Source: Frigoribacterium sp. Leaf8
GTDB taxonomy: Bacteria; Actinomycetota; Actinomycetes; Actinomycetales; Microbacteriaceae
Direction of reading: 5' to 3'
DNA length: 64,000 nucleotides
Assembly: GCF_001421165.1 (NCBI RefSeq)
Contig: NZ_LMKB01000001.1
Span: 488,284 to 552,283, forward strand
Part shown: positions 2,552 to 57,147 of the stretch, one piece after another
How the letters are laid out: each line of letters starts with the position of its first letter
How positions within the stretch are numbered: the first letter of the stretch is position 1
The notes under the pieces: model-generated
Told to the model about the DNA's origin: nothing
The model's input: only the letters and a program-made list of their open reading frames with translations
Databases searched by the model: none
Translations under genes and position numbers: made by a program

Positions 2552-2778
2552 GGTCGTGCCTCCTCGGCGTTCGGGGGTGGTTGGTTCTCCATGGTGACGG
2601 AGGCCTCTGCGGCGTCGGTCGCGCCGGGCGCGCGGCGGTGGAAGAGGCCGGCGATCGCCCAGGGGCCCGGCTGGAGACGCACCGCCATCTCGTCCAGCAC
2701 CCGCGCCTCCTGCTCTCGGTCGCGCGTGAGGTCCGAGATCTCGCAGGAGGCGCGCCACCACATCGCGAGGCGGCTCAC
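2548..2778 (-). CDS. Small coupled protein of unknown function
   Basis: A 76-codon frame between the XRE regulator and the aldo-keto reductase. It begins with GTG at 2776-2778, sharing GTGA with the regulator's stop, and ends in the GTGA that starts the reductase, so both junctions look translationally coupled. The N-terminal half reads MSRLAMWWRASCEISDLT and continues with a charged helical stretch (about 25-45); the C-terminal 30 residues are Ala/Pro/Glu-rich and probably disordered. No family recognised. That it is a gene rests on the perfect end-to-end fit, not on homology. Confidence 0.55.
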   Translation of the reverse strand: MSRLAMWWRASCEISDLTRDREQEARVLDEMAVRLQPGPWAIAGLFHRRAPGATDAAEASVTMENQPPPNAEEARP

Positions 2779-3704
2779 GATCCGGCCGCCTCGCGCGGTC
2801 CGCTCGCGACGTCGGGTCGGTCCGGGGCGTCGGCGCGGACGACCGCCGGGTCGGCCTGCGGCGCCGCCCAGCTGGCGAGGAGGCGGAGGCGCTCCTCGGT
2901 CGGCGAGCCGGGCTCGGCGCTGTAGACGAGGAAGTTCAGGCCCGGGCGGCCCATCGGCTCCATGGCCTCGTAGACCATGTCGAGCTGACCGACGACCGGG
3001 TGGTGGAAGCGCTTCTGGCCGGACGTGTGGTGGCGCACCTCGTGGGCGCCCCAGCGCACGCGGAACTCGTCGCTGCGGGTGGACAGTTCGCCGATCAGGT
3101 CGTGCAGGGCGCGGTCGTGGGGGTCGCGGCCGGCCTCGGTGCGCAGGATCGCGACGTTGATGTCGGCGGCCACCGACCACGACGGGTAGAAGGCCTCGGC
3201 TTGCTCGCGGTGCAGGAAGACGAAGCGGGCGAGGTTGACCGGCCGCTCGTCGAGGGCGTAGAGGTCGGAGTAGAGCGCACGGAAGAGCGCGTTCTCGGCG
3301 AGGACGTCCATGCGGCCGTTGCGGACGAACGCGGGCCCGGCCGTCACGGCGTCGAGCACGAGCTGCATGCTGCGCGAGACGGTCTCGGGCGGACGGCGTC
3401 GACGCCGGGCGCGCACGGGCGACTCGTTCGCGGCACGGGCGAGGTCGGCCAGGTGCTCGCGTTCGGCGTCGTCGAGCAGCAGGGCGGTCGCGAGCGAGTC
3501 GAGCACGACCTCGGACACCCCGCCGAGGCGCCCGCGTTCGAGCCGCGTGTAGTACTCGACGCTGACGCCCGCGAGCAGCGCCACCTCGCTCCGCCGCAGT
3601 CCGGGCACGCGGCGTCCGGGGCCGCCCGGCAGCTCGACCTGCTCGGGCCGCACCCGCGCCCGTCGGCTGGTCAGGAAGTCGCGGATCTCGCTCTCGGTGT
3701 CCAT
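2775..3704 (-). CDS. XRE-family regulator with MmyB-like ligand-binding domain
   Basis: A 309-residue regulator starting MDTESEIRDFLTSRRARV. The N-terminal HTH (about 12-75) contains PGLRRSEVALLAGVSVEYY and LERG, the signature of the MmyB-like subgroup. The remaining 200 residues are the PAS-like MmyB_LBD, ending with a conserved LYSAEPGS/LRLLA-type tail. These proteins often repress an adjacent oxidoreductase or efflux gene and respond to small lipophilic ligands. Here the downstream coupled genes are the small protein and the aldo-keto reductase. A paralogue of the same architecture lies at 29724-30611. Upstream is an unusual inverted-repeat block shared with the divergent GntR gene. Confidence 0.9.
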   Translation of the reverse strand: MDTESEIRDFLTSRRARVRPEQVELPGGPGRRVPGLRRSEVALLAGVSVEYYTRLERGRLGGVSEVVLDSLATALLLDDAEREHLADLARAANESPVRARRRRRPPETVSRSMQLVLDAVTAGPAFVRNGRMDVLAENALFRALYSDLYALDERPVNLARFVFLHREQAEAFYPSWSVAADINVAILRTEAGRDPHDRALHDLIGELSTRSDEFRVRWGAHEVRHHTSGQKRFHHPVVGQLDMVYEAMEPMGRPGLNFLVYSAEPGSPTEERLRLLASWAAPQADPAVVRADAPDRPDVASGPREAAGS

Positions 3705-42055: not shown

Positions 42056-45000
42056 TCAATGCCACTCCTCCACTCGAACCGTTCCATCGGAGGTAGTCCA
42101 CGCCCGCCAGAACTGCGCTGCCGTACTGAAAGGCACCGCAAGCCGTCCTAGGTGTTCGGAATCGGCCCCTCGAATGGCATCGTTCCCCCTAGCTAGGCGC
42201 ACAGGCACTTCCACAGGCATCGCTTGGTTCGGAAGAACGGGCAGGGAGCGTTGCACTGGCGACCAGCTCGATTCTTCCGTCTCCGACTGATCTCGAAGGA
42301 AGTCGACCCATTGACTGTGCGAACTTGGCGTGGGCTTGTCGACCCGCTCCGAATAGGCCTGTAACGATGAGGATGCGAGCCAGGCATTGAACGTGGCGAA
42401 GCTTGTGACAGTGGGACTTAGTTCCTTCGCGACTATGTGAGCAACGGAACGTGACGGAAGCCCGGCCTGGAGAAGCATCATCGCGGCTCGGTCAAGCGAT
42501 CCGGTTTGGACCGCGAGAGCCACCCAATTGACACTCTTCTCTGGCAGAAGGCGCTCCTCAGGAGCAAGGCGGCTACGCACTGATTCGAGGCCCCAGGACA
42601 AATTGAAACCGACCGAGTCCTCGATGAAGTCGTAGGCAGCATAGGTCGCCGTCGGATCGGAGAAGTTCAGCGAGCCCCCTGAGAGCCAGTGGGCGAGGAC
42701 TGCTTCCCACTCTGTTGGGTGCTTAGACGCCGGCGTAAAGGGCGGAATCTCAAAGAGCAGAGCCACAAGCGCCGTGATTGCCGCGACGGCTGCTTCATTG
42801 TCATTCGTTTCGATGGCCGTCGTGGCCTCCTCATACAACGCGCCTAAAGCCGCCTCCCTCTCTGCAAGCAGACGCTCCGTTTGCAGGCCAATTCCAGCTA
42901 GGAACATGCCTCGACGTTGAGCTGCGGTCGTCTCACGCCAAACCACACCGGCACGCGCCTTGAGCACTTCGGGGTAGAGCAGCTGCTCAGCCCTTGGCAG
43001 CCGCGAAAGTGATCGGGACCAAAGTGAGTCTTTTAGGGCTTTCTCAAGTGCAACCGTCACGTCGTCGTCGTCGCTTGCCCCTCCGAGCAGGCTCAGCAGA
43101 CTGACGTCAATCAGGGCAATTAGAGCAGCCAATTCGCCAGCGTCATCATCGCCCGTTCCGGATGAGATCTCTTGCTGATTGAGAACAAACTCGACAACGC
43201 TGGCGGCGTCTTCTTCGGGGACAGCCCTCTGAATGCGGCTTACGACTTGTCGAACGACCTCGACGATGCCGCTCCGGAGAGTGTGCTCGGAAGCTGCCGT
43301 CTGCAGCATGTCCCAGGCATCGAGCTTCGTTCGCCGCTTGCGGCCGTCGTGCTCGAGGACGGGAAAGAGGACCAGCCCCTCGACGTCAGCGAAGGCCCGG
43401 CCGGCACGACCTATCACGTTGAGAAAGTCGGCCGTAGGCATTGGACCACCGTCCAACCCAAAAATGCCGTGAAAGACCACTGTCGTCGCGGAAAGATTGA
43501 TGCCCTGCGCCAAGGTTGGGGAAGCGATCACCAAGCGGAGTGCATTCTCACGGATGAGCCGCTCGACGTGGTGCCGATACTGGGTGGGCAGACTCCCGTG
43601 GTGGAGGCCAACGCCGAGCCGAAGACATTGAGTCACGACGTCTTCCGGTCCAAAAAGTTCCTCTGCTACACGAACAGCCTCGTCGACGGCAGGCTGATTG
43701 TTTACCGGAACGGGATCAAGAAGTCTTTGCCGGTGGAGACTAGGGATGCGCTTGGCCAGCGCAAGCACGGACGCTTTCCTGGGTGAGTAGATAAGGACTG
43801 TGTGATCGCGGCCGATGAGCGCCGCTGCGGTGGCGAGGGTCATCTCCGGCTGGTCGTTGGGGTACAGCGACTTTCGGCGCCCAACTGGCGTACCTTGCGG
43901 AAACAGTTGCGGAATGAATGGTTTTTCCCCACCCACGGTAAGTTCCATGCGACCCGAACCGGCTCTAGTCAACTCGACCAGGCCGAAACGCCGACGTGTA
44001 GGTGTCCAATCTGTGCGGATGAGCCCAGATTCGCCCTCACCAGTGAACCAATCGGCAAAGTCAGCGAGGGCGTCTCCCTCCGGAAGGACTGCAGAGAGGC
44101 ACAGGATGCGTCGCCCAGCGGCATCAGAGCGATTTAGGAGCCGCTGAATCTGAGCTTCGTAACGCACTTCCCGCTGGCCAGGCCCAATCATGTGCCCCTC
44201 GTCGAAGACGATCAGCCCAACGTTGCCCAGTAACTCCTCGTCTTTCCGGAGAGCGAAGTCGAACTTTTCAGGGGTCGCTACGACTAGGTCGCTACTGGCA
44301 AGACCTCGCCCATCATTCGGAGTCACGCCCATAGGCCCGTACAGGGCGGAGACAGAGTAGCCGAGGGGGACGAAGAGCTTTCGCAGGTTGTGCTCGGTTT
44401 GAGAGGACAACGCCTTGAGTGGGGTAACGAAAATGATGCGCTGGTCACGAGCAAGGACTCGAAGTATGGCGAGTTCGGCGATGCGCGTCTTGCCCGCGCT
44501 GGTGGGCATGGAGAGAACGAGATCGGCGTCGGACTCAAGAACGGCGGCTGCTCCAGGCAACTGAGAAGGCCACAACTCAACTTCAGCCCGGGCGCGTGCT
44601 CTTAACCGAGTAATGAAAGCATCTCTGAGGTGGTGCCACTTTCCGCTGCTAACTTTGGCGGCGTCGGAATGAGGGGGCACTCGAGGGACCCTCGCGTGCA
44701 GACTCGCGTTCCACAGCCCCTCCAGGAGGTGGCTCGCAAGCCGATGCGTCCACCATTGCAAGACAAACCCGTGGTCTGCGGCAAGGGTGGCGCTCCTCGC
44801 AAGAGACGCCCTAGCTTCATCGAACAGGCCCCGAGCCCCATGGTCGAGTCCGGTCAACATCAGGCTCATAGCCTGCATGAACGTCAGATCTAGGGCATGA
44901 AATCGCGGGTCGATAATCGTTTCGTCATACATTCCTGGTGTTTCACTCTGACTCAGCTTTGGTTCGTCACTCCTGGAAGGAGAATCCAGAAGGGAGATAA

Positions 45001-45505
45001 GCCGCGGAATTCTCTCCCCAATGTGCTTGCTTAGAGCATCCAGGTCCCGGAGCATCAGCCGGCTCAGAGCGTATGCCGTTGCGTCATTTTCAGCATGAAT
45101 CGGATTTCGATCGACGAGAGAATAGGCGCGTGCGGAGTAGCCCGCCAAGTGATAGCACATGGCGGCTATGGCTATGTTCATGTCGCGATCAGGGGCCTCG
45201 GGGTCACCGTCTCTTAACACAGCCTCCATGGCTTCAGCTGCTCGTTCAAACGCAAGTTCCACAGGCCTGGAGAGGTCGTTATCCTCATCCGCTTCCGACA
45301 GCAAGGCTAGTGCGTTCGATGCGAGACCAAACGCGTAACTCATGAGGTCGTAACTGAGTCGCTTCGCGAATTTCGGCCCGTTTCTCGGAACCAAGCCGCG
45401 TCTCCAGACCAAGGCGCGCGACTGACCCCGCGCCAATAGATTGCCGTTGCTTCCCGGCTCAACTGTTGCCATGACCTCGAGAGCGAGGTCCTCAGCGCCC
45501 GGCAT
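42056..45505 (-). CDS. hamB: HamB, Hachiman SF2 helicase
   Basis: A 1149-residue helicase. A 300-residue helical N-terminal region precedes the motor: Walker A MPTSAGKT (about 330-337), VTPLKALSSQ, ATPEKFDF, DEAH-variant FDEGH (about 438), LSAVLP, SPTLAQGINLSATTVVF and the arginine motif NVIGRAGRAF (about 700). A long helical C-terminal half follows. The order and size match HamB, the DNA-sensing helicase of the Hachiman phage-defence system, with HamA encoded just upstream and overlapping by 14 bases. In studied systems HamB holds HamA inactive until it meets damaged or invading DNA. Confidence 0.88.
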   Translation of the reverse strand: MPGAEDLALEVMATVEPGSNGNLLARGQSRALVWRRGLVPRNGPKFAKRLSYDLMSYAFGLASNALALLSEADEDNDLSRPVELAFERAAEAMEAVLRDGDPEAPDRDMNIAIAAMCYHLAGYSARAYSLVDRNPIHAENDATAYALSRLMLRDLDALSKHIGERIPRLISLLDSPSRSDEPKLSQSETPGMYDETIIDPRFHALDLTFMQAMSLMLTGLDHGARGLFDEARASLARSATLAADHGFVLQWWTHRLASHLLEGLWNASLHARVPRVPPHSDAAKVSSGKWHHLRDAFITRLRARARAEVELWPSQLPGAAAVLESDADLVLSMPTSAGKTRIAELAILRVLARDQRIIFVTPLKALSSQTEHNLRKLFVPLGYSVSALYGPMGVTPNDGRGLASSDLVVATPEKFDFALRKDEELLGNVGLIVFDEGHMIGPGQREVRYEAQIQRLLNRSDAAGRRILCLSAVLPEGDALADFADWFTGEGESGLIRTDWTPTRRRFGLVELTRAGSGRMELTVGGEKPFIPQLFPQGTPVGRRKSLYPNDQPEMTLATAAALIGRDHTVLIYSPRKASVLALAKRIPSLHRQRLLDPVPVNNQPAVDEAVRVAEELFGPEDVVTQCLRLGVGLHHGSLPTQYRHHVERLIRENALRLVIASPTLAQGINLSATTVVFHGIFGLDGGPMPTADFLNVIGRAGRAFADVEGLVLFPVLEHDGRKRRTKLDAWDMLQTAASEHTLRSGIVEVVRQVVSRIQRAVPEEDAASVVEFVLNQQEISSGTGDDDAGELAALIALIDVSLLSLLGGASDDDDVTVALEKALKDSLWSRSLSRLPRAEQLLYPEVLKARAGVVWRETTAAQRRGMFLAGIGLQTERLLAEREAALGALYEEATTAIETNDNEAAVAAITALVALLFEIPPFTPASKHPTEWEAVLAHWLSGGSLNFSDPTATYAAYDFIEDSVGFNLSWGLESVRSRLAPEERLLPEKSVNWVALAVQTGSLDRAAMMLLQAGLPSRSVAHIVAKELSPTVTSFATFNAWLASSSLQAYSERVDKPTPSSHSQWVDFLRDQSETEESSWSPVQRSLPVLPNQAMPVEVPVRLARGNDAIRGADSEHLGRLAVPFSTAAQFWRAWTTSDGTVRVEEWH

Positions 45506-46286
45506 CGGCGATCACTCCCTCATAGACGCTAGCTACGAAGTTGGCGTGGTTTGGTATGTGGACCAGAACTGAATGCTGGCCGGTTTTCGAAGAGGCGGTG
45601 TCCATGTCGGACCTCAGGCCTTTTTGCAGGTCCACGCCGGACAGAATGAAGAGAAGGTGCTCAATCCTTGAGAGTTTCACTGTGACGTCGGCGCGCATAG
45701 CGGCAGCCAGGAGACTTTCATGGTCTTCCTCCCACAGTCGCGTCTGAATGAAGCCCTTCGTGCTTGGGTTGGGCAACCCGTTATCCTTATCGAGCGCCTC
45801 GCGAGCTGCAGCGATGACGCTAGCCCCCGGCCTTACACCGCTTTTTGCCTCTCCTTTGAGATAGCGCGGCCGTGCCCGCCGGCCGGATGTCAAGCGCACG
45901 CCGATGAGGTCGTCACCGCGCATGGCCAGGCTTGCTCGATCTTTCCATCGGAGCCGAAAGATGACCTCGAAGCTAGTCGTACTGCGGATGAACTCCGCAC
46001 CAAGAATCTCGCCAAGGTCACCAGAGCGGGTCCGCTTCGCACGCGCCCCGGGCAATGCTCCGTCGACGGCTGCGGCGAATGTCCGCTCTAGGCGGCTCAT
46101 CGATTCATAGGCGGGTGCGAAGTAGCTGCGAATTGTCAGGGGGATCGAACTGCGGAGAAACTCTCGCATATCACCCTCCGCGAGTCGCACGACGGTGATG
46201 CGTTTGCCGGGAGAGTGGTCCTCCGTCACTCCAGCCGGAAAAAGCCTCCCAGCGCCCCCCACGGTGGTTGCTTGTTCCGTATTCAT
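45492..46286 (-). CDS. hamA: HamA, Hachiman DUF1837 nuclease
   Basis: A 264-residue DUF1837 protein. RSGDLGEILG (Glu93), RGDDLIGVR (Asp126) and LKGEAKS (Glu146, Lys148) form a PD-(D/E)xK active site of the kind described for HamA, which degrades DNA when released by HamB. GGGGGAG ribosome site before the ATG. It overlaps hamB, giving a two-gene operon. An AAGCGGA/TCCGCTT hairpin lies about 100 bases upstream. The catalytic residues all look intact, so the system may be active. Confidence 0.88.
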   Translation of the reverse strand: MNTEQATTVGGAGRLFPAGVTEDHSPGKRITVVRLAEGDMREFLRSSIPLTIRSYFAPAYESMSRLERTFAAAVDGALPGARAKRTRSGDLGEILGAEFIRSTTSFEVIFRLRWKDRASLAMRGDDLIGVRLTSGRRARPRYLKGEAKSGVRPGASVIAAAREALDKDNGLPNPSTKGFIQTRLWEEDHESLLAAAMRADVTVKLSRIEHLLFILSGVDLQKGLRSDMDTASSKTGQHSVLVHIPNHANFVASVYEGVIADAGR

Positions 46287-46386
46287 AGTGCTCCCCCTGA
46301 GCTTGCCAAGCGGCCGTCGAAATCACGCTCAAGCAGTTTTGCGGCGCATCGGCCAAAGGCTCAGGTCGTGCGCCGCGCGGTCGGCA

Positions 46387-46403
46387 AAGCGGACAATCCG
46401 CTT
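46387..46403. promoter_or_regulatory. Short inverted repeat upstream of hamAB
   Basis: AAGCGGA-CAA-TCCGCTT, perfect 7-bp arms, about 100 bases before hamA. TATA-rich sequence (46413-46430) next to it could hold a minus-strand -10. The whole space 46287-46723 contains no gene; this and the promoter-like AT patch are the only signals seen. Confidence 0.4.
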
Positions 46404-46723
46404 AGAAACCGTTCCTATAAATCTATAGCTCAGGCCGCATCCGAACCACATCTAGGAACCTGCCACGATCGGATGGCATCCCTCCAAGCCTCCGGGAAGG
46501 CTGGGGTCGCAACGCCTGCGTGTCGAATTGCGAGACCCTGCCCGTGAGGCCTCTGCTCATGGCCACCATAACAAGTAGCTTGCCGCATCACTTCGGGCCC
46601 GAACGCCTCAGACGGCGGCTGAATCTCTACGTTGACGTGCAGTCCATGGCAGATGGCCTAACGCTCAGGCACCTCCCGCCGACAGTCACCTAGCAAGTCC
46701 GAAGGCATTTCTAGGGGGAACCA

Positions 46724-47173
46724 ATGAAGCAGAGACGCATTATCCGAAACGACGCGGAGGCCTGGAAGGACTTCATGCCCCAGCCTGGAAATGGAGGCGT
46801 GCCTCAGCATCGGGAAGTGGAGGCCTTCAAGTCGGCAGTGCAAGACAACGACGAACTACGTCAGAAGGTCATTGGGGAACTACGGGAGAGATCCGAGGGT
46901 CAGCCCGCTATACAGCTTGGCATTTTGGTAGCAAGCTTGTCGGCCTTCGCAATCATCGTCACGATGTTTCCGCGCACTCTCGACTTGACTTCTGCGTCAT
47001 CGCTGGAACTCTTTCAGTCCCTGTTCCTCACGACCGGAGCCTGCGTCCTGGCCCTTTTCATGCTCGGCGCAGCGCTTACGGCGCACCAACAGAGTCGCAC
47101 TCGGCACGCTTCTTCCTACTTGCAGGCCTACCTCGAGGTACTCCCTCGGCTGGGTGACGTTCCGAAGTCTTGA
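46724..47173 (+). CDS. Two-TM protein of the defence island
   Basis: A 149-residue protein. The N-terminal 60 residues are charged and helical; two membrane spans follow (AIQLGILVASLSAFAIIVTMF, about 62-82, and SLFLTTGACVLALFMLGAAL, about 103-122) and a short cytosolic tail. The layout (charged helix then two spans) is similar to the protein at 56186-56626. No family recognised. Lies between Hachiman and the candidate methyltransferase system; it may be an effector or accessory of either, or a solitary gene. Confidence 0.6.
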   Translation: MKQRRIIRNDAEAWKDFMPQPGNGGVPQHREVEAFKSAVQDNDELRQKVIGELRERSEGQPAIQLGILVASLSAFAIIVTMFPRTLDLTSASSLELFQSLFLTTGACVLALFMLGAALTAHQQSRTRHASSYLQAYLEVLPRLGDVPKS

Positions 47174-47441
47174 TCGACTAGCTCGTGACTCAGATGGCTG
47201 CGCTCCTTTGCCGCAGGGGCGCCCGAGTGCGATGGTCTGATTTGGGGCCACGCGTACAAGGTGCTTGAACGCTCAGAGGGCGAATTTCGACCTCGCCCCT
47301 GCGGCTACTCGCGTACGCCTTCCTGGGGTTAGCATGCGGAAGGCCCACGTTTGAGCGTCGGGAGCCAATCTCCCCCGACCGAGGTCGATCGGAGCCCGTC
47401 CTTCCGCCGGCCCACGCTGCCTGCAAGTGTTACTACCCGCG

Positions 47442-47840
47442 TTAGTCCGACCAGGCCGTGAAGCGGCGCTTTGTGAACGCGAAAACATGAAAAGCTCTGT
47501 CCGCATCAAGGAAGCCAAGGAGAATATCGTCGTCCTCCACCTCGGCCTCGTCCGAGTGCCTCGTGGGTTTCTTCATCGGGAAACCGACGACGATTGCCGG
47601 CGTATCAAGATCTGGGTACTGTCTGTTGCGCAGCCACTGCTTCCAGCGAACTAGCTGACCGACTTCGAAAGGCTCCTCAGCTTCCCATTCCTCAAGGGCT
47701 GCGCGTAAACGGTTTCCGTATCCTGGGTCACGAGCTGCTTCCTTGTAACGGCGCCACCTCTGCTCGTCCTCGGATACAAGGGCGGCTGAAAGGTCTTCCG
47801 AGGCGTCCGCCGCTGAATTGAGGGACTCATCGTGCGTCAT
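47442..47840 (-). CDS. Unknown protein, third gene of a three-gene operon
   Basis: A 132-residue acidic protein. PFEVGQLVRWKQWLRNRQYPDLDTPAIVVGF (cited as landmark in parts; about 58-88) and DDDILLGFLDADRAFHVFAFTKRRF suggest a small beta-barrel, in the manner of proteins that read 'VGxxVxWK...PAxV'. Overlaps the preceding gene by 14 bases. No catalytic residues evident. Probably an accessory or specificity factor of the operon; this is inference. Confidence 0.65.
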   Translation of the reverse strand: MTHDESLNSAADASEDLSAALVSEDEQRWRRYKEAARDPGYGNRLRAALEEWEAEEPFEVGQLVRWKQWLRNRQYPDLDTPAIVVGFPMKKPTRHSDEAEVEDDDILLGFLDADRAFHVFAFTKRRFTAWSD

Positions 47841-48693
47841 TGTTGGCCTTTCCTAATTCAAACCGCTCTGACTGGCTCAACTGGAGTGACGGGTAGCTGC
47901 TACTCCGATGGGCATTCCCGGCACCACCCGATGGGTGAAGCAGTGAGGAGTTCTTGCTAAAGCCACCCATTGCGCCGAAGGCACGAGCGAAAGCTGCCTC
48001 AGGCGCTGCAGAAGCATTCTTCGCGGGCTCGTCCTCGAGTTGCTGCGCTCTGAGCTGCGACGTGAGTTGCCGAAGTTTGCGGTAGAACTGACGTGCGCTA
48101 CGGATTCCAGGCACTGTATCGACGGCAAAGACGGCGGTTAGGTGCAGGGCATGCGGGTCGTTGTTCTCTTGGTAGTAGAGCGCTCGGAGGAGGAAGTAAT
48201 CGATATCTTCAACTGGGGAAAACTCCGAGAACAGATCGAAGTAAGCCTTTGCATCTCCGTTGGTCTTCTCTACGCGAATACGCAAGGACCCAAGCAATAG
48301 CGGTCTCACCGCCTTTCGGACCGTCATTCGGAAGTCTGCAAGTGCTTCTCTTTCCATGACGTTCCAGGAAAAGCCGCGACTGGCTACGTGCCAATCGTGC
48401 AGCTTGTCCGCTTGTCCCCTCAGGGAGTGAACGCCCTCCACTAGCTGCTTGAGCTGAGGCCCAATGAGCGCCACAACCTGCCCAGCCTCATGCCAGACTG
48501 GAGGAGATGTACGGAGCCGATGAACGTAGGGCAGCGTGTCTTCCGTCACCTCGCGCAGAGACACGGACTCATGGCGGCCATTCACGGCGACAAACAACGT
48601 GCCCTCGACGTCAAGCACCGGGTCGGCAGAAAATATGGCATTCTCATTGCCCAAGAGGTCGGCCGCGAAGCCAACGACACGGATGTCATTCAT
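47827..48693 (-). CDS. Unknown protein, middle gene of a three-gene operon
   Basis: A 288-residue protein. First 60 residues look beta-rich (VLDVEGTLFVAVNGRHESVSLREV); the middle is helical with a possible coiled coil (IGPQLKQLVEGVHSLRGQADKLHDW, about 75-99); the C-terminal 70 residues are Ser/Ala-rich and likely disordered. No family recognised. It overlaps its neighbours by 8 and 14 bases, so the three genes are translated together. The block points away from the methyltransferase gene. Confidence 0.65.
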   Translation of the reverse strand: MNDIRVVGFAADLLGNENAIFSADPVLDVEGTLFVAVNGRHESVSLREVTEDTLPYVHRLRTSPPVWHEAGQVVALIGPQLKQLVEGVHSLRGQADKLHDWHVASRGFSWNVMEREALADFRMTVRKAVRPLLLGSLRIRVEKTNGDAKAYFDLFSEFSPVEDIDYFLLRALYYQENNDPHALHLTAVFAVDTVPGIRSARQFYRKLRQLTSQLRAQQLEDEPAKNASAAPEAAFARAFGAMGGFSKNSSLLHPSGGAGNAHRSSSYPSLQLSQSERFELGKANNDAR

Positions 48694-49540
48694 TGAAGTT
48701 CCTTTTCCGCAAATCAGATGTCATTGACCCGTAAGGGTCCGGTACGCTCTTGGCCACTCGACCTAGAAGCCGAGCATGCTTCAAGCTTTCTTCCGGCCCA
48801 AGCGGATTCTCATGGCTCGTCAACCACCGGCGGTAGCGGCCAAGATAGTCCTCCCGGAAGTACACATGCCGTGCCCTCAGGTGTTTCTGGTCCGTCATGA
48901 CAGCTCGCAGGCGACCCTCCCAAGCCCATCGGCGCGGATCAGCCCGCCGGGACATCGAAATTTCCGGCGCGAAGGGCTTCTCGGGCGTCACCGCCCTGTC
49001 CTCAGTCAAGTAGTCAGAACTGGGGTGAAAGGAATCAGTGATCCAAGCGCGAAGCGCGGCTTGATGCGACTGCAATGGAATGGCGTGTCGGTGGACCACG
49101 TCGGCAGGAGCGTCAACACTTGGGTTTGAAAGAGAGATGTGGCCGAGCGCAACCCCTCCTGTGTCGAACGGCGCGACAGCTCCGGAGATGGTTCCGTCTT
49201 CGATAGCTGCAAAAACAGCAACATAGTCACCAAATTCTGGGGAGTTTCTGCCAATCCCGTAATACACGTACTGATTCCCCGCCCAGAGCATCGCCTCTGC
49301 CTTAGCCGTGCTCGACGATCGGGGCAGCCCATAGAACCGGCCCGTCAGGCGACGGAGCAAGATCTCTTGCCAGGACATCGTCGACGACGCGACCGCGCTT
49401 CCAGAGCTAGCCCCCACCACTGGTCCCGGCGGCCTCACGCGCATGCCTTGGACCCACGGCAATGCCCCGTTCCGCGACCAGGCTTTGACGCCCAAAGCCA
49501 AGGGGCTGGACGCGCGTTGGAGTAGGGAGGAGAGCCACAT
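48686..49540 (-). CDS. Unknown protein, first gene of a three-gene operon
   Basis: A protein of up to 284 residues. The conserved-looking part begins at MSWQEILLRRLTGRFYGLPR (ATG at 49376-49378) and includes NQYVYYGIGRNSPEFGDYVAVFAAI and RHVYFREDYLGRYRRWL near the C-terminus. The N-terminal 55 residues before that are low in structure, so the shorter start is a real alternative; a TTG at 49552 would add four more. Family not recognised. It diverges from the methyltransferase gene across a roughly 296-base promoter region (49541-49836). Confidence 0.6.
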   Translation of the reverse strand: MWLSSLLQRASSPLALGVKAWSRNGALPWVQGMRVRPPGPVVGASSGSAVASSTMSWQEILLRRLTGRFYGLPRSSSTAKAEAMLWAGNQYVYYGIGRNSPEFGDYVAVFAAIEDGTISGAVAPFDTGGVALGHISLSNPSVDAPADVVHRHAIPLQSHQAALRAWITDSFHPSSDYLTEDRAVTPEKPFAPEISMSRRADPRRWAWEGRLRAVMTDQKHLRARHVYFREDYLGRYRRWLTSHENPLGPEESLKHARLLGRVAKSVPDPYGSMTSDLRKRNFNE

Positions 49541-49836
49541 CGCTCTTGACAATACCCATTCGTCGCGTACTGTCGCGAACCTCCTTTAGGGGCCCGGGCT
49601 CAGCCTCGCCACGAGTTCCACCGAATTTACTTGCAGGGCGCCCGCCACGAGCGTGACGTGGTGTTCATTAATCGCGCTGACAGGTGCCCTCGAGAATCAG
49701 AGTTAGACGCATTCCTACTGTGGCCCTTTAGTTCAGCCTCAGGTGCTCGAGGTGGAATCCGAGTTCTGCCCTGTACGCGAGAATAGGTATGAGCCAAAGG
49801 GAGAGCCTTGGCCTGGTAGCGCGAGGTAGGAATGAT

Positions 49837-51912
49837 ATGCCGAGTTTCTCGATCCTCGACGCCGGCGAGTTGCCTGTCCGAGAACTGGCCGTCTTGGCGA
49901 AGCGCGAGGCCCATCGGCCCCGCCCCATTTACACGGCACACAAGTGGTTCGCTCGCCGCTTCGGAACCGCCATGAGGGCCCTCCTCGTTGCCTCTCAGCA
50001 ACCGGCGGGCGAAAGTTTTTGGGACGCGTTCAACGGGCAGGCGGACCTGCGTGGCTTGACGGTGGCAGACCTCTTCATTGGAGGCGGCACGAGCCTTTAT
50101 GAGGCGCAACGACTGGGAGCAGACGTCGTGGGCGCCGACATCGACCCTGTTGCTTGTCTCGTCACGAAATTCGAGCTTGCCGCGCGAAGCATCCCGGACC
50201 CGGCGCGGCTCGTGGATCGCGCCCTTGCGGCCTCCGCCGCCCAGCGAGCGCTTTACGAAACCATCTCGCCAGCCGGCGAGAGACGCATCGGGTTGCACTT
50301 CTTCTGGGTCCAAGTCGTTGAGTGCGGGGCGTGTGAAGTCCACTTCGACGCACACCCCGACTACCTCCTCGCGAGCACTCCTTCGGGGAAATGGGCATTC
50401 TGCAGCTCATGTGGAGACGTGTCCGCCTTGGACGGGAAGTCGGAGACCCTGGACTGCCACTGTGGATCGGCGACGCTCTTGACCCAAGGAACTGCCCGCA
50501 AGGGAGCAGTCACATGCCCCAATTGCGGACATGAAGAGAAGTTGATTCATCTGGCCAGGAGGACGACGGCAACGCCCAATTACCGCCTCTTCGCGATCGA
50601 ATCGATACCCGCTGAGAGCGCTTCAGGACGGCCGGTACCCATGGCGGCAAGGACGTTCCACAAAGCCAATGCCTACGACCTCGAGCAGTACGATTCCGCG
50701 ACTGCAGCCCTAGAGCAAGAGAGCGGGCTTCTGCCGTCTCGCCAGATACCCCATGAAGGCCGCAGTGACAGCAGATTGACGAGCTACGGGTACAGGACCT
50801 ACACGCAGCTCTTCAACCAGCGTCAGTTGCTCCACTTGAACCGCCTCCTGGCACAGATTCCGGCACTTGACCCGCGAGACCAGATGACTTTTTCGCTGGC
50901 CCTCTCCAATCACCTCACATCGAACAACATGCTGACCCGCTACAGCGCTGGATACCGGCAGGTGACTCCCCTGTTCTCCCTTCGAGCCTTCGCGCACTCG
51001 ACCCGGCCCGTGGAGCTGAACCCCTGGCTGGTGAAGACTGGACGAGGCACGTTTCCCAATGCGCTCAATAAGGTTTCGCGTGCAATTGCTGACGCCAAGG
51101 ACCCGAGAGAGTTGACACCGAACGGGTTCCTTTCGACACCAGCACTCGGGCACAACACTCGAGCAGAGGTCCACAATGTCGATAGCCGGCACCTTTCAAT
51201 GGTGCCGGATATGTCGGTGGATCTGGTTCTGACGGACCCGCCGTACCTCGACAACATTGACTACAGCGAGCTTTCCGACTTCTTCGTCCCCTGGCTGGCC
51301 GCGGCGGGACAAATTGAAGATCCAGGAGGACCGTCGCCAAAGTCTCTCGCCGCGAAGAAACGCATCGGTGACAGCGTCAAGATTTTCAGTGACGGGCTCG
51401 CTGCGTGCTTCGGCGAAGCCACCAGAATTCTCGCTCCTGATGGACGCCTTGTTTTCACATTTCAGCACGCCTCTGTGCGTGCCTGGGAGGCTCTCGGTCA
51501 TGCGCTGGCCGCCAACGACCTTGAACCCGTAACGGTCTTCCCCCTTCTTGGCGATAGCGAAGCGAGCCCGCACCGCTTTGCCGGTTCGACGACGTGGGAC
51601 TCAGTTTTCGTTCTTCGGCGAGCAGAACCGTCGTTTTCCAAAATGCGTAACGGCTTGATGTCCGCGTCCCACATTGAAGCCTGTAGAGCACATGCAACCT
51701 CGTGGGCGGACAAGCTTTCGTTGGGGGATGCCGACCGTTTGAACATCACCCGAGCGTCAATCGTCGCTGGTCACCTCGGCTTCCTGATCCCCGAAGACGC
51801 GCCGTTCTCGCTCGCGCCGCTCGACCTGGTGACAGCACTCTCCCCCGGACAGGCGTCAGCGACTGGGAGTGTCGATGCTTATGCTGAGGAGCTGGCTAAA
51901 TCAATGGTGTAG
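49837..51912 (+). CDS. DUF1156-like DPPY DNA methyltransferase with zinc-ribbon insertion
   Basis: A 691-residue protein. It opens PSFSILDAGELPVRELA and RPIYTAHKWFARRFG, as in large DUF1156-type methyltransferases. The SAM motif ADLFIGGGTSLYEAQRLG is near 78-95 and the catalytic DPPY near 467-470 (LVLTDPPYLDNIDY), a permuted order typical of amino-methyltransferases. Between them are four cysteine pairs (CGAC, CSSC, CHC, CPNC, about 163-230), a likely zinc-binding insertion. The ATG at 49837 has GAGGTAGG upstream and fits the family start; 49789 is an alternative. Probably marks host DNA; the nuclease-helicase starts 9 bases later. Confidence 0.82.
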   Translation: MPSFSILDAGELPVRELAVLAKREAHRPRPIYTAHKWFARRFGTAMRALLVASQQPAGESFWDAFNGQADLRGLTVADLFIGGGTSLYEAQRLGADVVGADIDPVACLVTKFELAARSIPDPARLVDRALAASAAQRALYETISPAGERRIGLHFFWVQVVECGACEVHFDAHPDYLLASTPSGKWAFCSSCGDVSALDGKSETLDCHCGSATLLTQGTARKGAVTCPNCGHEEKLIHLARRTTATPNYRLFAIESIPAESASGRPVPMAARTFHKANAYDLEQYDSATAALEQESGLLPSRQIPHEGRSDSRLTSYGYRTYTQLFNQRQLLHLNRLLAQIPALDPRDQMTFSLALSNHLTSNNMLTRYSAGYRQVTPLFSLRAFAHSTRPVELNPWLVKTGRGTFPNALNKVSRAIADAKDPRELTPNGFLSTPALGHNTRAEVHNVDSRHLSMVPDMSVDLVLTDPPYLDNIDYSELSDFFVPWLAAAGQIEDPGGPSPKSLAAKKRIGDSVKIFSDGLAACFGEATRILAPDGRLVFTFQHASVRAWEALGHALAANDLEPVTVFPLLGDSEASPHRFAGSTTWDSVFVLRRAEPSFSKMRNGLMSASHIEACRAHATSWADKLSLGDADRLNITRASIVAGHLGFLIPEDAPFSLAPLDLVTALSPGQASATGSVDAYAEELAKSMV

Positions 51913-51921
51913 GGGTGGGCA

Positions 51922-54900
51922 ATGCCAAGGCTGAACAAGACGGCGTTCACGGATTTTGCGTCGACGGGGTGCGAAAAACAACTGAGGCTGTCGCTCCATC
52001 CCGATAGCGGTTCCTACCTTGCGGAGCGAAAGGCTTTAAACCTCCCTCATCAGCAAGTTAGACCTGCCCTTCAAATCATCGCTGAAGCTGGCAATGAATG
52101 GGGCCGTGCGAAGGTACTTGACCTGCAGCTGGCATTCGGAGCGGACCGCTTGCTTGGCAAAGACCCCAAACCGTCTGGCCCGCCGTCGCTGCCTGGTGTC
52201 GCGTTCGCGACGGGCGAGTTGTCGCTCTACTTGGCGCGCGCTGCGGCAGGTGACTTCCTAATCGAAAATGAATTTGACGCGGATAACAGCACCTTTATCC
52301 GCCTGCACGGCCTGGACAAGGTGGAAAGTGACGGCGCGCAGATCAGCCTGGATCTGAGCCGCGTGCGGCCAGACATCATTGAAGTTCAATCACCGCAGAG
52401 CTGCATTTCAGTCGTCACGCCAGAAGGAGACGTCCGCCGGCTCGAAGCGGCAGATGATCGCTTGATTCTGCGAGTCATCGACGTCAAGCTCACGACGGAA
52501 CCAGGACCGCGTTACTTTGCCGAGTTGGCCTATTACTGCCTAGCCCTGGCTGCCTGGCTTAGGCATTCAGGACTCGAAGACACCTACGCTGTCAGTGCTT
52601 CTGCGGCCGTCTGGCCTGGAAGCGAAGGCGCGTCTCCGTTGAGCCTTGCCGTGGTTGCAGGCAACCCCAATACCTATGACGCGTTCCATGAGAGTTTGGA
52701 AGAAGCCCCCCTCCGTATATTCGTAGCCACTGTGCGTCGGGTAATCCGGGTCATCATTCCCAGGGTGCTGGCCACGCCGTTCGATGCCTTGCCCTGGACC
52801 GTCGGACCTCGCTGTCAAGGATGCGAAAATCTTGGGCAGAAGTTCTACGACGAACCAGGAACGAACGCATCCGACTGGGATCCCCGCCACTGCATCCCTC
52901 TGGCAAAAAAGACTCAGAACCTTTCTAGACTGCCATTTTTGTCTCGCGGATCAATGACAGTGCTGCGCTCAAACGGCCATGCAGATCTGCCAGCGATCGC
53001 AGGCCTGGAACCCAGCAACACGGCGTTCGATTCCCATCATCGGCTACGGGGTCAACGGACGATGGTCTCAAAGCGGGCGCGAGCCTTGACCGGCCTGGAC
53101 ACTGATCCCCTAGACAGCGCCACCGCCTCTACGGCCGCAATCCCGCGCTTCGCAAAGTTGCGCATATACCTCACGGCGGACTTTGACCCCGGCAGCGCCC
53201 TCACCCTCGCCTTCGGCATGACCTGGTCATGGCTCGATGCAACGACGAAACTTACCAGCGTTCAGCGAATGCGCATGCACTACACCGAGGAGAAGACCGT
53301 CGAGGCTGAATGGGCCGCGCTACTCAGCCTCCTTAGCGACATTTCGACAGTGTTGCGTGAAGCAGAAAAGCAAGACGGCGACCCGACATTCCAGGTATAC
53401 GTCTGGGACGATCTGAGCCTCAAGCACCTCACGCGGGTTATCGGTCGTCACCTAGGCCACATTCTCATCGATGGCGAGTTGGCTCGACTCGCCTGGCTCT
53501 TCCCGCCCGATGAAATACTCCCTAGCGCCCGTCTGGCAGGCGTGCCAGCCATCAGCGTGACCAAGAACGCTGTTCGGAGTTTGCTGACACTTGACATTGC
53601 CCACACTTACACACTGCTAGGGACAGCGCGTGCGTTCCATCGGCCGGACCACCCCAACCCCAAGTTCTACGTCCCAATGTTTTGGGAAGATCCCTTCAGT
53701 GACCAGGTACCCCCAGAACGTGCACACCAAGTTTGGGGAGGCCAGCGCTCGTCGCACTCACCGACCAAGGCGCAGTTGGCGTCGGATCTGTTGACCACCG
53801 TCAGATCGAAACTTGCGGCCCTCTCGAACGTGACGGATTTTCTCAGTCGAGAACTGACAGGCCGACTTCCCAGGGAAGCACCCAAAATTTCCCACCTTGG
53901 TCCCACGAAAGAGTTGGCCGCCTCCAGTCACCTTGGTGCATTGCTTTATGCGCACGCCCGCCTCAACGCGGCGCTATCACAGCTAGAGAAAAATCAACTA
54001 CGGACATTGCCGCTTGCCGAAAGAGAAGCAAAGTTTGAGAGCGCCATTCTGGAGGAGAGACTAGACGGCAAGGACTCGGCCGAAGTCCTGCAACTGTTGG
54101 CCATCGAACCCTCGAAAAATGCGCTTGTGTACAAGGTCGCCCAGTCATCCAAGGACGCCAAAATCAAGCAAGGCAGCTTCAATTGGTCCTTACTTCCAAA
54201 GGAGTTGACGCAAAGCGGCGGGCTCACTGTCAAGCGCTTCTTGAATTCGCACCCAGAACAGGCGGATGGTTTCTCACAATTCGGGGATGAACTGTTCCGC
54301 AAAACTCTCAACCAGGTCTTTGCCGCCACCATTCTCGGCATTGATCGAAGTCGAGGCTTCGTTGTTTTGGAACTGAGTTCCTACAGCACAGATCCAGACA
54401 TCCGGAAGCAGCTGGAGGCCTGTGGACTCGTGAACCTTGCTCTGGACGTGGTACTTGATCCAACCGACAGTGACTGGTTCACCAAGCCACTAGGCGACGT
54501 TATTCGCGCAGTGGGCAATCCTCCCTCTTCTTCCAGAAGCTTGCCCATCCAACAGGCACTGGGTTCCAGGCGTAGTCCACGAAATACGAAGGCTCATCCA
54601 GCCGAAACATTTATCTGGACTCCTCTTGAGGTCTCCGAATTACGGAACGATGTCGACCTCAGCGAGTCGCTTGCAATACTTCAATCCGCCGGCGTGAGTC
54701 TCAATGACAGCCAAAGATCAGCTTGGGGTAAAGCGCTGACCAGCCACCTCACCCTCATCTGGGGTCCCCCCGGCACGGGGAAGACAGCGACCCTTCGGGC
54801 CCTCTTGTTTTCCCTTGTTCATCTCCCCCAATCGACACGCCCGCTACGCATCGGCGTCGTAGCGGGCACATACACGGCGGTAGACACGTTGCTCGAATCC

Positions 54901-56163
54901 TTCGTACAGCGTTTTTCTGACGACCTACCAACGAGCATTCGCCGGCTGCGAAGCAGCGGCCCTGCCGTGACATGGCTCAACGACGATGAGAACGTTCTGA
55001 CTAAGGATCCAGGCGCCTTGGCAAGCGTCAAGAGACTCCTGAACGGGGAGCAGGCCGTGATCGTCGCCGGAACACCCCAACAGCTCCGCAAGCTCGGAAC
55101 TGACAAGGGCGGGCTCTTCGACGTGCTCCTAATCGATGAGGCTGGCCAGCTCGATGTCGCTCACGCCCTAATGGCCATTGCGGGCCTCACCACGGATGGC
55201 ACGCTCGTCGTAGCGGGTGACCCCAAGCAGTTGCCACCCATTCATCAAGCTGACCCACCTATCGGTCTCGAGAGCTTTGTTGGCTCGATCTATGACTACT
55301 ACCGGACTGGGCATGACGTGCGCGAAGAGAGCTTGCTCATCAACTACCGATCCAATGACACAATTGTCCAGCTGGGGAAACGTGCGGGCTACCCTGACGA
55401 ACTAACTTCTGCCAACCCAGAACGAAAGCTCGTCTACTCAGACGCCGCGAGCGAATGGGCCATTCAAGGCTTGCGCCCAACCGAGTGGCCAGCTGGCCTG
55501 GCTTTCTCAGACATCGTCCCCGCCATCGCGAGCCCTGGCCGCGAGGTGGTGTGCGTGGTGTACCCAGAGGGAGTTTCGGGACAATGGAATGATTTTGAGG
55601 CAGCGCTCGTGGCCCAAGTCGTCGCGTGGTACAGGTTGGCGCTCAAAGACGGCGACCTGCCCTCCCTCCGTAACGACGAAATCTTCTGGACTCAGAAGCT
55701 CGGAATTGTCACACCCCACAGAGCACAGAGGACCCGTGTCATCGACGTCTTGCTCGAGCACTTGGACGATGGTTCTCACTCGAAGGAGCTTCGGCACTGG
55801 ATTGACTCCGCGGTCGACACGGTCGAAAGGTTCCAGGGTCAAGAAAGGGACATCATCATCGCTACCTATGCCGTAGGCGACCCTGACACAATCGCGGAGG
55901 AATCAGAGTTTCTACTCAGCCTAAATAGATTCAACGTTTTGGCTACGCGGCCGCGATACAAGCTGGTTGTAATTGCCAGCAGGGAACTCGCAGAGCATAT
56001 CGATTCAGATCTGGAGGTGATTCGAAACAGCGTGATGATTAAGGACTTTGTGGACTTGTACTGCAATAAGAGCAAGGCGTGGGACGTGTCGCTTGACCCA
56101 GCTGAACCGGTCGTTCACGCCGAACTGCGGTGGCATGATCCCGCCTGGCCCATGGAGTCATAG
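51922..56163 (+). CDS. Fe-S RecB/Cas4-type nuclease fused to SF1 (Dna2/Upf1-like) helicase
   Basis: A 1413-residue protein. The N-terminal nuclease has RPDII (about 149-153), VIDVKLT (about 185-191) and ELAYYCLAL (about 201), a RecB/Cas4-like core, framed by Cys17 and Cys298, Cys301, Cys324, the four-cysteine Fe-S pattern of Dna2/AddB/Cas4. About 600 helical residues follow. The C-terminal SF1 helicase has GPPGTGKT (about 948), LLIDEAGQLD (about 1068), VVAGDPKQLPPI (about 1097), TPHRAQR and RFQGQERDIII (about 1300). Co-directional with the methyltransferase, 9-base gap. Likely degrades or unwinds unmodified DNA. Confidence 0.85.
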   Translation: MPRLNKTAFTDFASTGCEKQLRLSLHPDSGSYLAERKALNLPHQQVRPALQIIAEAGNEWGRAKVLDLQLAFGADRLLGKDPKPSGPPSLPGVAFATGELSLYLARAAAGDFLIENEFDADNSTFIRLHGLDKVESDGAQISLDLSRVRPDIIEVQSPQSCISVVTPEGDVRRLEAADDRLILRVIDVKLTTEPGPRYFAELAYYCLALAAWLRHSGLEDTYAVSASAAVWPGSEGASPLSLAVVAGNPNTYDAFHESLEEAPLRIFVATVRRVIRVIIPRVLATPFDALPWTVGPRCQGCENLGQKFYDEPGTNASDWDPRHCIPLAKKTQNLSRLPFLSRGSMTVLRSNGHADLPAIAGLEPSNTAFDSHHRLRGQRTMVSKRARALTGLDTDPLDSATASTAAIPRFAKLRIYLTADFDPGSALTLAFGMTWSWLDATTKLTSVQRMRMHYTEEKTVEAEWAALLSLLSDISTVLREAEKQDGDPTFQVYVWDDLSLKHLTRVIGRHLGHILIDGELARLAWLFPPDEILPSARLAGVPAISVTKNAVRSLLTLDIAHTYTLLGTARAFHRPDHPNPKFYVPMFWEDPFSDQVPPERAHQVWGGQRSSHSPTKAQLASDLLTTVRSKLAALSNVTDFLSRELTGRLPREAPKISHLGPTKELAASSHLGALLYAHARLNAALSQLEKNQLRTLPLAEREAKFESAILEERLDGKDSAEVLQLLAIEPSKNALVYKVAQSSKDAKIKQGSFNWSLLPKELTQSGGLTVKRFLNSHPEQADGFSQFGDELFRKTLNQVFAATILGIDRSRGFVVLELSSYSTDPDIRKQLEACGLVNLALDVVLDPTDSDWFTKPLGDVIRAVGNPPSSSRSLPIQQALGSRRSPRNTKAHPAETFIWTPLEVSELRNDVDLSESLAILQSAGVSLNDSQRSAWGKALTSHLTLIWGPPGTGKTATLRALLFSLVHLPQSTRPLRIGVVAGTYTAVDTLLESFVQRFSDDLPTSIRRLRSSGPAVTWLNDDENVLTKDPGALASVKRLLNGEQAVIVAGTPQQLRKLGTDKGGLFDVLLIDEAGQLDVAHALMAIAGLTTDGTLVVAGDPKQLPPIHQADPPIGLESFVGSIYDYYRTGHDVREESLLINYRSNDTIVQLGKRAGYPDELTSANPERKLVYSDAASEWAIQGLRPTEWPAGLAFSDIVPAIASPGREVVCVVYPEGVSGQWNDFEAALVAQVVAWYRLALKDGDLPSLRNDEIFWTQKLGIVTPHRAQRTRVIDVLLEHLDDGSHSKELRHWIDSAVDTVERFQGQERDIIIATYAVGDPDTIAEESEFLLSLNRFNVLATRPRYKLVVIASRELAEHIDSDLEVIRNSVMIKDFVDLYCNKSKAWDVSLDPAEPVVHAELRWHDPAWPMES

Positions 56164-56185
56164 ACCGCAGCGCCAAGGACGGCGG

Positions 56186-56626
56186 TCACAGCTTGGTCGA
56201 TTGCGACTTGCCAGACCCCTCATACAATGAGTTTGCGATTATATATCCAAGGCCCAGTGTCTCGACAAGGGCCGAGGAGAACCACGCAATCATTACAGAC
56301 GGTTCGACCTGGTCACCCACGGTGATCAGGTACCCCGACATGAATACGGTTGACGCCACGAGCACGCCTGATATGGACGCGATGGCCCACACGAAGAAAT
56401 GACGCCTTTGATCACCTTGCTGCTTGAGCTTGGCCAGTCGCTCCTTTTCGATGGACCCAAGCGTTTCTGCGCTCTCGCGGCGAATATCACGCATGGCCCG
56501 GTGGTGCTCCAACTCGGAGTCACCGGTCAGCTCTTGGAAGTCCATCTTGCGCTCGACGGGAGCCTTACGGAGATCGTCGGCTCGAGCCTGGCTTGGGGTG
56601 TCTTCGTATGGGGTCTCGGCGGTCAC
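56186..56626 (-). CDS. Two-TM protein coupled to an ImmA/IrrE peptidase
   Basis: A 146-residue protein with GTG start overlapping the peptidase stop (GTGA, 56623-56626). The N-terminal 75 residues are a charged helix with coiled-coil character (ESAETLGSIEKERLAKLKQQGDQ); two spans follow (FFVWAIASISGVLVASTVFM and IAWFSSALVETLGLGYIIA). The arrangement resembles the unrelated-looking protein at 46724-47173. No family recognised. Peptidase-coupled membrane proteins can be cleavage targets or effectors, but this is inference. Confidence 0.62.
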   Translation of the reverse strand: MTAETPYEDTPSQARADDLRKAPVERKMDFQELTGDSELEHHRAMRDIRRESAETLGSIEKERLAKLKQQGDQRRHFFVWAIASISGVLVASTVFMSGYLITVGDQVEPSVMIAWFSSALVETLGLGYIIANSLYEGSGKSQSTKL

Positions 56627-57147
56627 AGTGAACGAGACTCCAGGACTCCCTCTGCCTTGAACTTTCGAATGCGTACCTGCACCGCGGCCCGACTCACGGC
56701 GAAGACGGTGGCCAGGTCGCTCACACTTACACCTTGGTTTGCCAGGTCAATGAACCGTTCCGCGGGCATCAGGACATTTGCCGCGAACTCGTCCGCGTAC
56801 AGCTCATGGAGATCCCACTGACCGCCTCGACCGTTCCGGAACGCGTTACCAGATGGCTCTTCGAACGAATATTCCTTGTCTTTCGCCTCGAGTCGTTCCA
56901 TATAGTGCCCGATCTCGTGAGCGCACGTGAACACCTGACGGGTGATGCTTTCATGCTCAGCAATCAAGATCTGTACCTTGTCCGCGTCAGCAACGATGGC
57001 GCCAGACAGCTCGTCGTCAAAGCGAGTGAATCCGACTTCAATTCCAAGCTCCCTGGCGATCGAAATCGGGTCAACGGGAAGGGTCCCGTCCCAATGTTCC
57101 TCGAGCGTTCGGACTGCTGCTTCACGGGCGGCCTCGACTACCAGCAC
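56623..57147 (-). CDS. ImmA/IrrE-family metallopeptidase
   Basis: A 174-residue peptidase. The zinc motif HEIGHY lies at residues 77-82 with the third ligand in ADEFAANVLMP (Glu120); PVDPISIARELGIEV is the usual N-terminal block. Residues about 138-165 (VSVSDLATVFAVSRAAVQVRI) look like an added helix-turn-helix. GTG start with GGAGG upstream. ImmA/IrrE members cleave repressors; the usual XRE partner is absent and a two-TM protein is coupled instead. It converges on the nuclease-helicase gene from the other strand. Confidence 0.85.
   Translation of the reverse strand: MLVVEAAREAAVRTLEEHWDGTLPVDPISIARELGIEVGFTRFDDELSGAIVADADKVQILIAEHESITRQVFTCAHEIGHYMERLEAKDKEYSFEEPSGNAFRNGRGGQWDLHELYADEFAANVLMPAERFIDLANQGVSVSDLATVFAVSRAAVQVRIRKFKAEGVLESRSL

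Follow-up and report, generated by a model that had tools for sequence, protein, structure and literature searches.

We analysed a 64,000-nucleotide stretch of the 3.3 Mb genome of Frigoribacterium sp. Leaf8 (contig NZ_LMKB01000001.1, positions 488,284 to 552,283; hereafter the window), in which a DNA methyltransferase gene (MT, 49789-51912) is followed after a 9-base spacing by a nuclease-helicase gene (NH, 51922-56163), both on the plus strand. Three overlapping minus-strand genes lie divergently beside the pair. G+C content falls to 57-65% in this island, against 70-77% in the adjoining DNA. An earlier annotation made from the letters of the stretch (the sequence-only reading) had proposed these five genes as a candidate defence system, and we recovered all five open reading frames (ORFs) where it had placed them. 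The features of the MT-NH pair are as follows.

49789..51912, plus strand: DNA methyltransferase MT, 707 aa, DUF1156/HmaB-like, with a zinc ribbon (PADLOC matches and motifs)
50068..50091, plus strand: MT motif I (S-adenosylmethionine binding), DLFIGGGT, residues 94-101 (motif positions)
50401..50526, plus strand: MT zinc ribbon, residues C205..C246 (alignment of five sequences)
51235..51246, plus strand: MT catalytic motif DPPY, residues 483-486 (alignment and motif positions)
51922..56163, plus strand: nuclease-helicase NH, 1413 aa, with a Cas4/Dna2-like iron-sulfur (Fe-S) nuclease, a middle region, and a superfamily 1 (SF1) helicase (PADLOC, PDB profile)
51970..52893, plus strand: NH Fe-S 'staple' nuclease, C17, D151, D187/K189, C298, C301, C324 (17 aligned NH sequences)
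54763..54786, plus strand: NH Walker A, GPPGTGKT, residues 948-955 (GPPGTGK in 17/17)

Family-library scans (PADLOC, Pfam, and NCBIfam) covered 10 window proteins encoded at 42056-57147. MT matched the PADLOC models MTase_II (E = 3.6e-20), DUF1156_MTase (E = 6.4e-19), and HmaB (E = 4.4e-16). Its motif I is followed by the target region and then by DPPY, with the zinc ribbon between motif I and DPPY. DLFIGGGT begins at residue 94, DPPY at residue 483, and CxxC pairs at residues 179, 205, and 243, which agrees with the sequence-only reading of a DPPY methyltransferase with a zinc ribbon. Residues C205, C208, C243, and C246 were invariant in 5/5 aligned sequences (MT and four NH partners). Because MT scored 17.4 bits against Pfam DUF1156 (cut-off 24 bits) and 99.7 bits against the NCBIfam anti-phage DUF1156 model NF042963 (cut-off 1000), it is a relative of this curated anti-phage family and not a member.

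The description of NH as an Fe-S nuclease joined to an SF1 helicase within 1413 residues was likewise borne out. One upstream and three downstream cysteines together with the D..DxK residues, as in DNA2- and Bad-like nucleases, were found in all 17 aligned NH sequences (16 distinct), in which the four Cys, the Asp at position 151, D187.K189, and the Walker A GPPGTGK were kept. The C-terminal SF1 helicase, of the Upf1/DNA2-like kind, was recognized by AAA_11/AAA_12 matches in 7/7 NH proteins. By profile, the nearest relative in the PDB was DNA2 (E = 3.8e-30, residues 914-1356, covering the helicase only), and the best NCBIfam match was an IGHMBP2-type helicase. The top PADLOC match was DpdJ (E = 2.1e-46), confined to residues 922-1392, and no PADLOC or NCBIfam model covered NH along its length. 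No Pfam nuclease model matched NH, so the Cas4/Dna2-like nuclease is predicted from the conserved residues and from homology to a protein encoded upstream of DpdJ in a Dpd variant (see below).

By description, the closest characterised protein is Bad of Geobacillus stearothermophilus. The excerpts of its report that we used describe an N-terminal Fe-S RecB-family nuclease fused to a C-terminal SF1B helicase, and an Fe-S protein that unwinds DNA 5' to 3', recognises junctions of single- and double-stranded DNA (ss-dsDNA junctions), and cuts single-stranded DNA as an endonuclease (PMC7430649). According to the same excerpts, the bad gene adjoins a methyltransferase gene in all Geobacilli instances that its authors investigated, and the 2020 proposal was that Bad is one component of a restriction enzyme of a novel kind (PMC7430649). 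Compared with Bad so described, NH has the same order of nuclease and helicase and also a methyltransferase neighbour. Bad is shorter (1245 aa versus 1413 aa), and its neighbour is type III M-like, whereas that of NH in the window is the zinc-ribbon DUF1156-like MT.

To collect further loci, NH was used as the sole query; loci and genomes are numbered below with L and G, respectively. Apart from the source genome, NH was found in G198 in a search of 396 genomes of the same order (E ≤ 1e-30) and in G1111 in a class-level search of 296 genomes (E ≤ 1e-60), and a search of genome contigs gave four loci. A plasmid search (E ≤ 1e-20) yielded eight records: the tblastn span was at least 80% of NH in L016 and L017, L018 was full length by blastp, four records (L019-L022) carried the split form of the Dpd variant, and L023 had a helicase-only match. 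Ten loci on viral contigs were recovered with a seven-row NH alignment; scans of the viral contigs with MT and with a two-row NH alignment gave no match. Beyond the window, NH was full length at 16 loci and cut by the contig end at one (L043). Its hosts comprised Actinomycetota, one Heimdallarchaeota metagenome-assembled genome (MAG), rhizobial plasmids, and ten IMG/VR contigs.

A DNA methyltransferase gene directly adjoined NH in 18/18 intact or contig-cut loci (the window, L011-L014, L017, L018, and L036-L046; 17 intact NH and L043). After NH proteins of at least 90% identity were collapsed (L013/L014, L037/L044, and L041/L045) and L043 was left out, the count was 14/14. Every one of the 18 loci thus links a methyltransferase genetically to a nuclease, as in restriction-modification (RM) systems. 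The spacing between the two genes ranged from a 10-base overlap (L038) to a 118-base gap (L011). The methyltransferase gene was upstream in tandem at seven loci (the window, L011-L014, L042, and L046), convergent downstream at ten (L017, L018, L036, L037, L039-L041, and L043-L045), and downstream in tandem at L038. The partners belonged to at least three methyltransferase types: zinc-ribbon enzymes with DPPY; enzymes of ~370-460 aa that carry SPPY and begin with motif I; and, in L042, an enzyme in which motif IV comes first. These results uphold the sequence-only reading of a modifier and a DNA-degrading motor as a unit.

Two NH copies were broken: L015 keeps a C-terminal fragment, and in L016 the copy is divided between two frames that overlap. 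Next to them, no methyltransferase was recognized by BLAST, nor by Pfam in eight neighbouring ORFs. The lack of a recognized methyltransferase beside a broken NH is as expected if unprotected NH is harmful, but two cases are few. The BLAST test recognized no methyltransferase at the DpdJ-type helicase loci L019-L022, nor at L023. The split NH relative of L016 (9968-14390) lies on the megaplasmid of Methylorubrum extorquens AM1.

Some NH loci adjoined BREX or other RM-like operons. A three-gene block stood directly upstream of NH in L037 (1-7380), L039, L041/L045, and L044, and its tail was found in L040 (1-168). The block encodes a UvrD helicase with a PD-(D/E)XK domain, a type III-like methyltransferase, and a ResIII helicase with a TnsA-like nuclease. 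L036 had PglX-PglZ-BrxL where the L037-type contigs carry this block.

The trees of the two proteins disagreed. The NH tree, from which L043 was left out, had two clades: that of the window held the window, L011-L014, L042, and L046, all with the methyltransferase upstream in tandem, and the other held loci with a convergent downstream (L017, L018, L036, L037, L039-L041, L044, and L045) or tandem downstream (L038) methyltransferase. L011 grouped with the window, L013, and L014 in the NH tree (support 100/100), with L046 outside, whereas L046 grouped with them in the MT tree (100/99), with L011 outside. Forcing L011 into the MT group of the window was rejected (approximately unbiased test, p-AU = 0.00125), as was forcing L046 into the NH group of the window (p-AU = 7e-74); the groups for these tests were named after the trees had been seen. 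Because the two trees disagree and the partner in L042 is a motif-IV-first enzyme, we conclude that methyltransferases have been exchanged, and NH appears to keep working with the exchanged partners.

In the MT tree, 5/6 MT sequences from NH loci (all except L012) stood apart from six plasmid-encoded, DUF1156-like enzymes that bore a no-NH label, although L011 joined the other NH-locus sequences at 85/99 only. On four plasmids, a DUF1156-like methyltransferase gene without NH overlapped an upstream gene of ~250-275 aa without assigned function (L003 8165-11076, L004 8139-10992, L005 8123-11106, and L006 1543-4493). An SMC/OLD-like ATPase gene came next in L003 and L005, and DUF262 and HEPN genes came next in L006.

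The sequence-only reading had found no fit between the locus and BREX, DISARM, Dnd, Druantia, Zorya, or type I/III RM and had taken Nhi and Hma as the nearest ideas. The first statement was sustained for BREX and DISARM among the listed matches given below and by the absence of a full-length NH model. Bad, with its methyltransferase neighbour, and the nuclease and helicase of a Dpd variant appear closer than Nhi and Hma. In all four Dpd-type loci (L019-L022), a Cas4-like protein of 762-774 aa precedes a long DpdJ of ~2.1-2.2 thousand residues. Using hhalign, NH residues 8-764 aligned with this upstream protein (probability 99.6, E = 6.6e-24), and the helicase half of NH aligned with the N-terminus of DpdJ. 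Nuclease and helicase are two separate genes in the Dpd variant, compared with the fused NH, and the helicase is fused there to a further part of superfamily 2 (SF2) type. In L022, dpdA/dpdB and queuosine-type genes were nearby, and the long DpdJ had its NH-like SF1 part at the N-terminus with SF2-type matches further on. PADLOC scans of three of these four upstream proteins gave no match at E ≤ 1e-8. In the excerpts of PMC12458937 that we used, DpdJ is classed as a YprA-type helicase, and ARMADA, DISARM, and Druantia are described as built on YprA-type SF2 helicases, unlike the SF1 helicase of NH.

For MT and HamB, the best 25 of 33 and the best 25 of 36 PADLOC matches, respectively, were listed. 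Among the listed matches of the 10 window proteins, there was no DpdA-C, the proteins of 7-deazaguanine insertion; the Dpd-type matches were DpdJ (NH residues 922-1392) and a weak one of DpdF to HamB. No Drm protein of DISARM (DrmA, DrmB, DrmC) was among the listed matches of these proteins either. The listed matches also contained no PglZ or BrxC of BREX, and the BREX-type matches were a partial one of PglXI to MT (E = 1.5e-10) and a helicase-level one of BrxHI to HamB. The PADLOC listing for NH comprised 11 families, none of them Nhi, although whether the library includes an Nhi model was not checked. Like the MT-NH pair, the BREX-related type 1 systems combine a DUF1156 (COG1743) methyltransferase with a helicase-nuclease, which is of the Swi2/Snf2 kind and accompanied by a DUF499 ATPase, as described in part of PMC12839542; a similar gene set is described in part of PMC7641849. 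The pair differs from these systems and Hma in its SF1 helicase and in the score of MT far below the family cut-off, and no DUF499 ATPase or Swi2/Snf2 helicase was among the listed matches of the window proteins at 42056-57147. Apart from the Bad hypothesis, we found no published name for the MT-NH pair in our searches of the licensed PMC literature, which is not proof that none exists.

Type ISP restriction enzymes also unite a methyltransferase and a helicase-nuclease in one system and use an SF2 translocase. The MT-NH pair consists of two proteins, with an SF1 helicase and an Fe-S nuclease instead of the SF2 translocase.

The other genes next to the pair are as follows.

48686..49552, minus strand: U284, outside the conserved pair, annotated start doubtful (288 aa from TTG; 284 aa from ATG 49540; 230 aa from ATG 49378)
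47827..48693, minus strand: U288, 288 aa, with a relative next to a U132 relative only in L051
47442..47840, minus strand: U132, 132 aa, with a relative in L051 (28% over 118 aa)
42056..46286, minus strand: hamA/hamB, Hachiman, a separate neighbouring system given as context only (HamA PDLC00159, E = 1.2e-53; HamB PDLC00174, 1132 bits)

The ORFs of the three genes were as the sequence-only reading had described, except that the start of U284 is doubtful, and they overlapped one another by 14 and 8 bases. The first 58 codons of U284 had a codon-position G+C pattern unlike that of other local genes, and because they look non-coding in that frame, the true start may be ATG 49378 (230 aa). U288 and U132 had ordinary coding composition. 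None of the three matched a family in Pfam, NCBIfam, or PADLOC, and PHROGs gave matches only at E ≥ 0.12. Structure searches against the PDB, which the sequence-only reading had called for together with the family searches, gave weak similarities, with best E values of 0.027, 0.16, and 0.28, of which the 0.16 belongs to U284 and is at chance level. AlphaFold models built without relatives had a mean predicted local distance difference test (pLDDT) of 38.2 for U284 (230-aa form) and 46.8 for U288, too poor for a fold search.

Relatives of the three genes were rare. A tblastn search (E ≤ 1) of L016 and the other 17 NH loci found none, apart from one chance match of 22 aa in the identical pair L041/L045. 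Genome-wide searches of five NH hosts (those of L012-L014, plus G198 and G1111) gave no match to U284 or U288, a blank that is uninformative alone. Plasmid searches with the three genes and with their L051 relatives gave no match, and viral contigs matched neither U284 nor U288 as single queries, nor the two-row alignments of U132 and U288. Besides the source genome, U284 had one weak match in 150 genomes and seven weak matches in 396, U288 had two weak matches in 396, and U132 had three matches in 198, among them G287, of which only that in G327 was confirmed. A two-row U132 profile gave one weak match besides the source genome in 154 genomes. Short weak U284 matches in L027 and L020 were not confirmed.

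The confirmed case, L051, is a 3050-base contig of G327, from the same order, with relatives of U288 and U132 at 1832-3048 and without MT or NH. The U132 relative stands directly behind the U288 relative with a 4-base overlap; the U288 relative (26% over 133 aa, E = 0.06) is weak alone, but the gene order is the same. On the remainder of the contig is an unrelated ORF that matched an FAD-binding domain. U288-U132 is thus a rare conserved pair, and it is probably independent of NH because its relatives occur together without NH in L051 and none occur at other NH loci. U284 remains an orphan. The five-gene neighbourhood of the sequence-only reading therefore divides: the methyltransferase stays with NH (18/18), and the three genes, found at 0/17 other NH loci, are best read as a separate, rare module that is not supported as part of MT-NH. 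In this sample they never occurred with the pair elsewhere, which the sequence-only reading had itself named as a refutation of its proposal.

Together, these results favour MT-NH as a two-gene RM-like system, to which we assign a probability of about 0.64. MT would methylate a sequence motif in host DNA and so mark it as self, the methylated base being probably adenine because of the DPPY motif. In NH, the proposed effector, the SF1B-type motor would move into unmarked DNA and unwind it 5' to 3', a polarity suggested by DNA2 and Bad, and the Fe-S PD-(D/E)XK domain would cut the strands. Methylation by MT would protect the host and determine which DNA is attacked. The pair travels on plasmids and predicted viral elements, and the role of NH would stay constant while the methyltransferase, and presumably the recognised motif, is swapped.

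Several points weigh against this reading. We saw no separate specificity subunit that would let NH discriminate between marked and unmarked DNA. A rough chance model for the adjacency gave a product of 7e-10 over 14 loci, an optimistic figure: the reference methyltransferases include the adjacent genes themselves, other methyltransferases such as PglX in L036 were left out, ORFs were called greedily with the longest first, and some loci are short because a contig ends nearby. The MT sequences of L011 and L012 are long branches, where the argument from partner exchange shares the weakness of the model. The archaeal NH comes from one MAG contig, which could be misbinned. Since ss-dsDNA junctions are where DNA2 and Bad act, NH may also have a role in repair or at replication forks. 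The pair could then resemble Hachiman as a sensor of damage or of replication forks, or form a repair unit of the DNA2 type, with the methyltransferase only regulating it or marking the age or origin of DNA. The nearest solved helicase is DNA2, Bad recognises such junctions in the excerpts cited above (PMC7430649), and the neighbouring Hachiman senses DNA damage as described in part of PMC12278908. We consider this reading unlikely, as the methyltransferase adjacency at every intact locus examined and the exchange for distant or unrelated types suit self-marking better, and the spread on mobile elements and the siting beside BREX or other RM-like operons also speak against it.

A five-gene system, in which U284, U288, and U132 would be regulators, sensors, or accessory effectors of MT-NH, fits their position as an adjacent, divergent, overlapping operon in the same low-G+C island. 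Their absence from the other NH loci, the blank in five NH-host genomes, and the joint occurrence of U288-U132 relatives apart from MT and NH in L051, albeit on a contig of only 3 kb, make it quite unlikely. It is very unlikely that MT-NH arose by gene loss from a larger system (BREX-related/Hma, DISARM, or Dpd), as a derivative or a part of it. MT resembles DUF1156/HmaB enzymes, NH is homologous to the nuclease of the Dpd variant and the SF1 part of DpdJ, and a three-gene block precedes NH on the L037-type contigs; however, the same two genes recur without such partners in Actinomycetota, the archaeal MAG, and rhizobial plasmids, and the listed matches of the 10 window proteins included none to DUF499, PglZ, Drm proteins, or the modification genes of Dpd.

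We see even odds that MT-NH represents a new RM class that spans archaea and bacteria on mobile elements, with a DNA2-type unwinding effector re-addressed by unrelated methyltransferases and a nuclease-helicase core in common with Dpd defence. In the excerpts we used, the 2020 paper left the membership of Bad in a novel restriction system open (PMC7430649), and the 17 relatives of a similar enzyme found here are an independent set. The methyltransferase link holds in every intact NH examined. New here are the wide spread of such loci, the exchange of partners, and the connection to Dpd. The restriction hypothesis can be reduced to two genes and is directly testable. If true, an unwinding SF1 effector would join a field dominated by SF2 translocases.

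As to the setting, the sequence-only reading was right about Hachiman next door. It had also placed a divergent promoter between the two gene blocks; the divergent layout stands, and the promoter is putative, as a scan of 47200-56700 limited to sigma-70-type promoters found no consensus between the blocks. The scan gave two sites (expectation 1.9), both near 56.2 kb. On the minus strand at 56186-57147, an overlapping gene pair encodes an M78 (ImmA/IrrE-like) peptidase with a helix-turn-helix domain, which matched capP (E = 1.5e-23), and a protein of 146 aa in which two membrane helices are apparent by eye.

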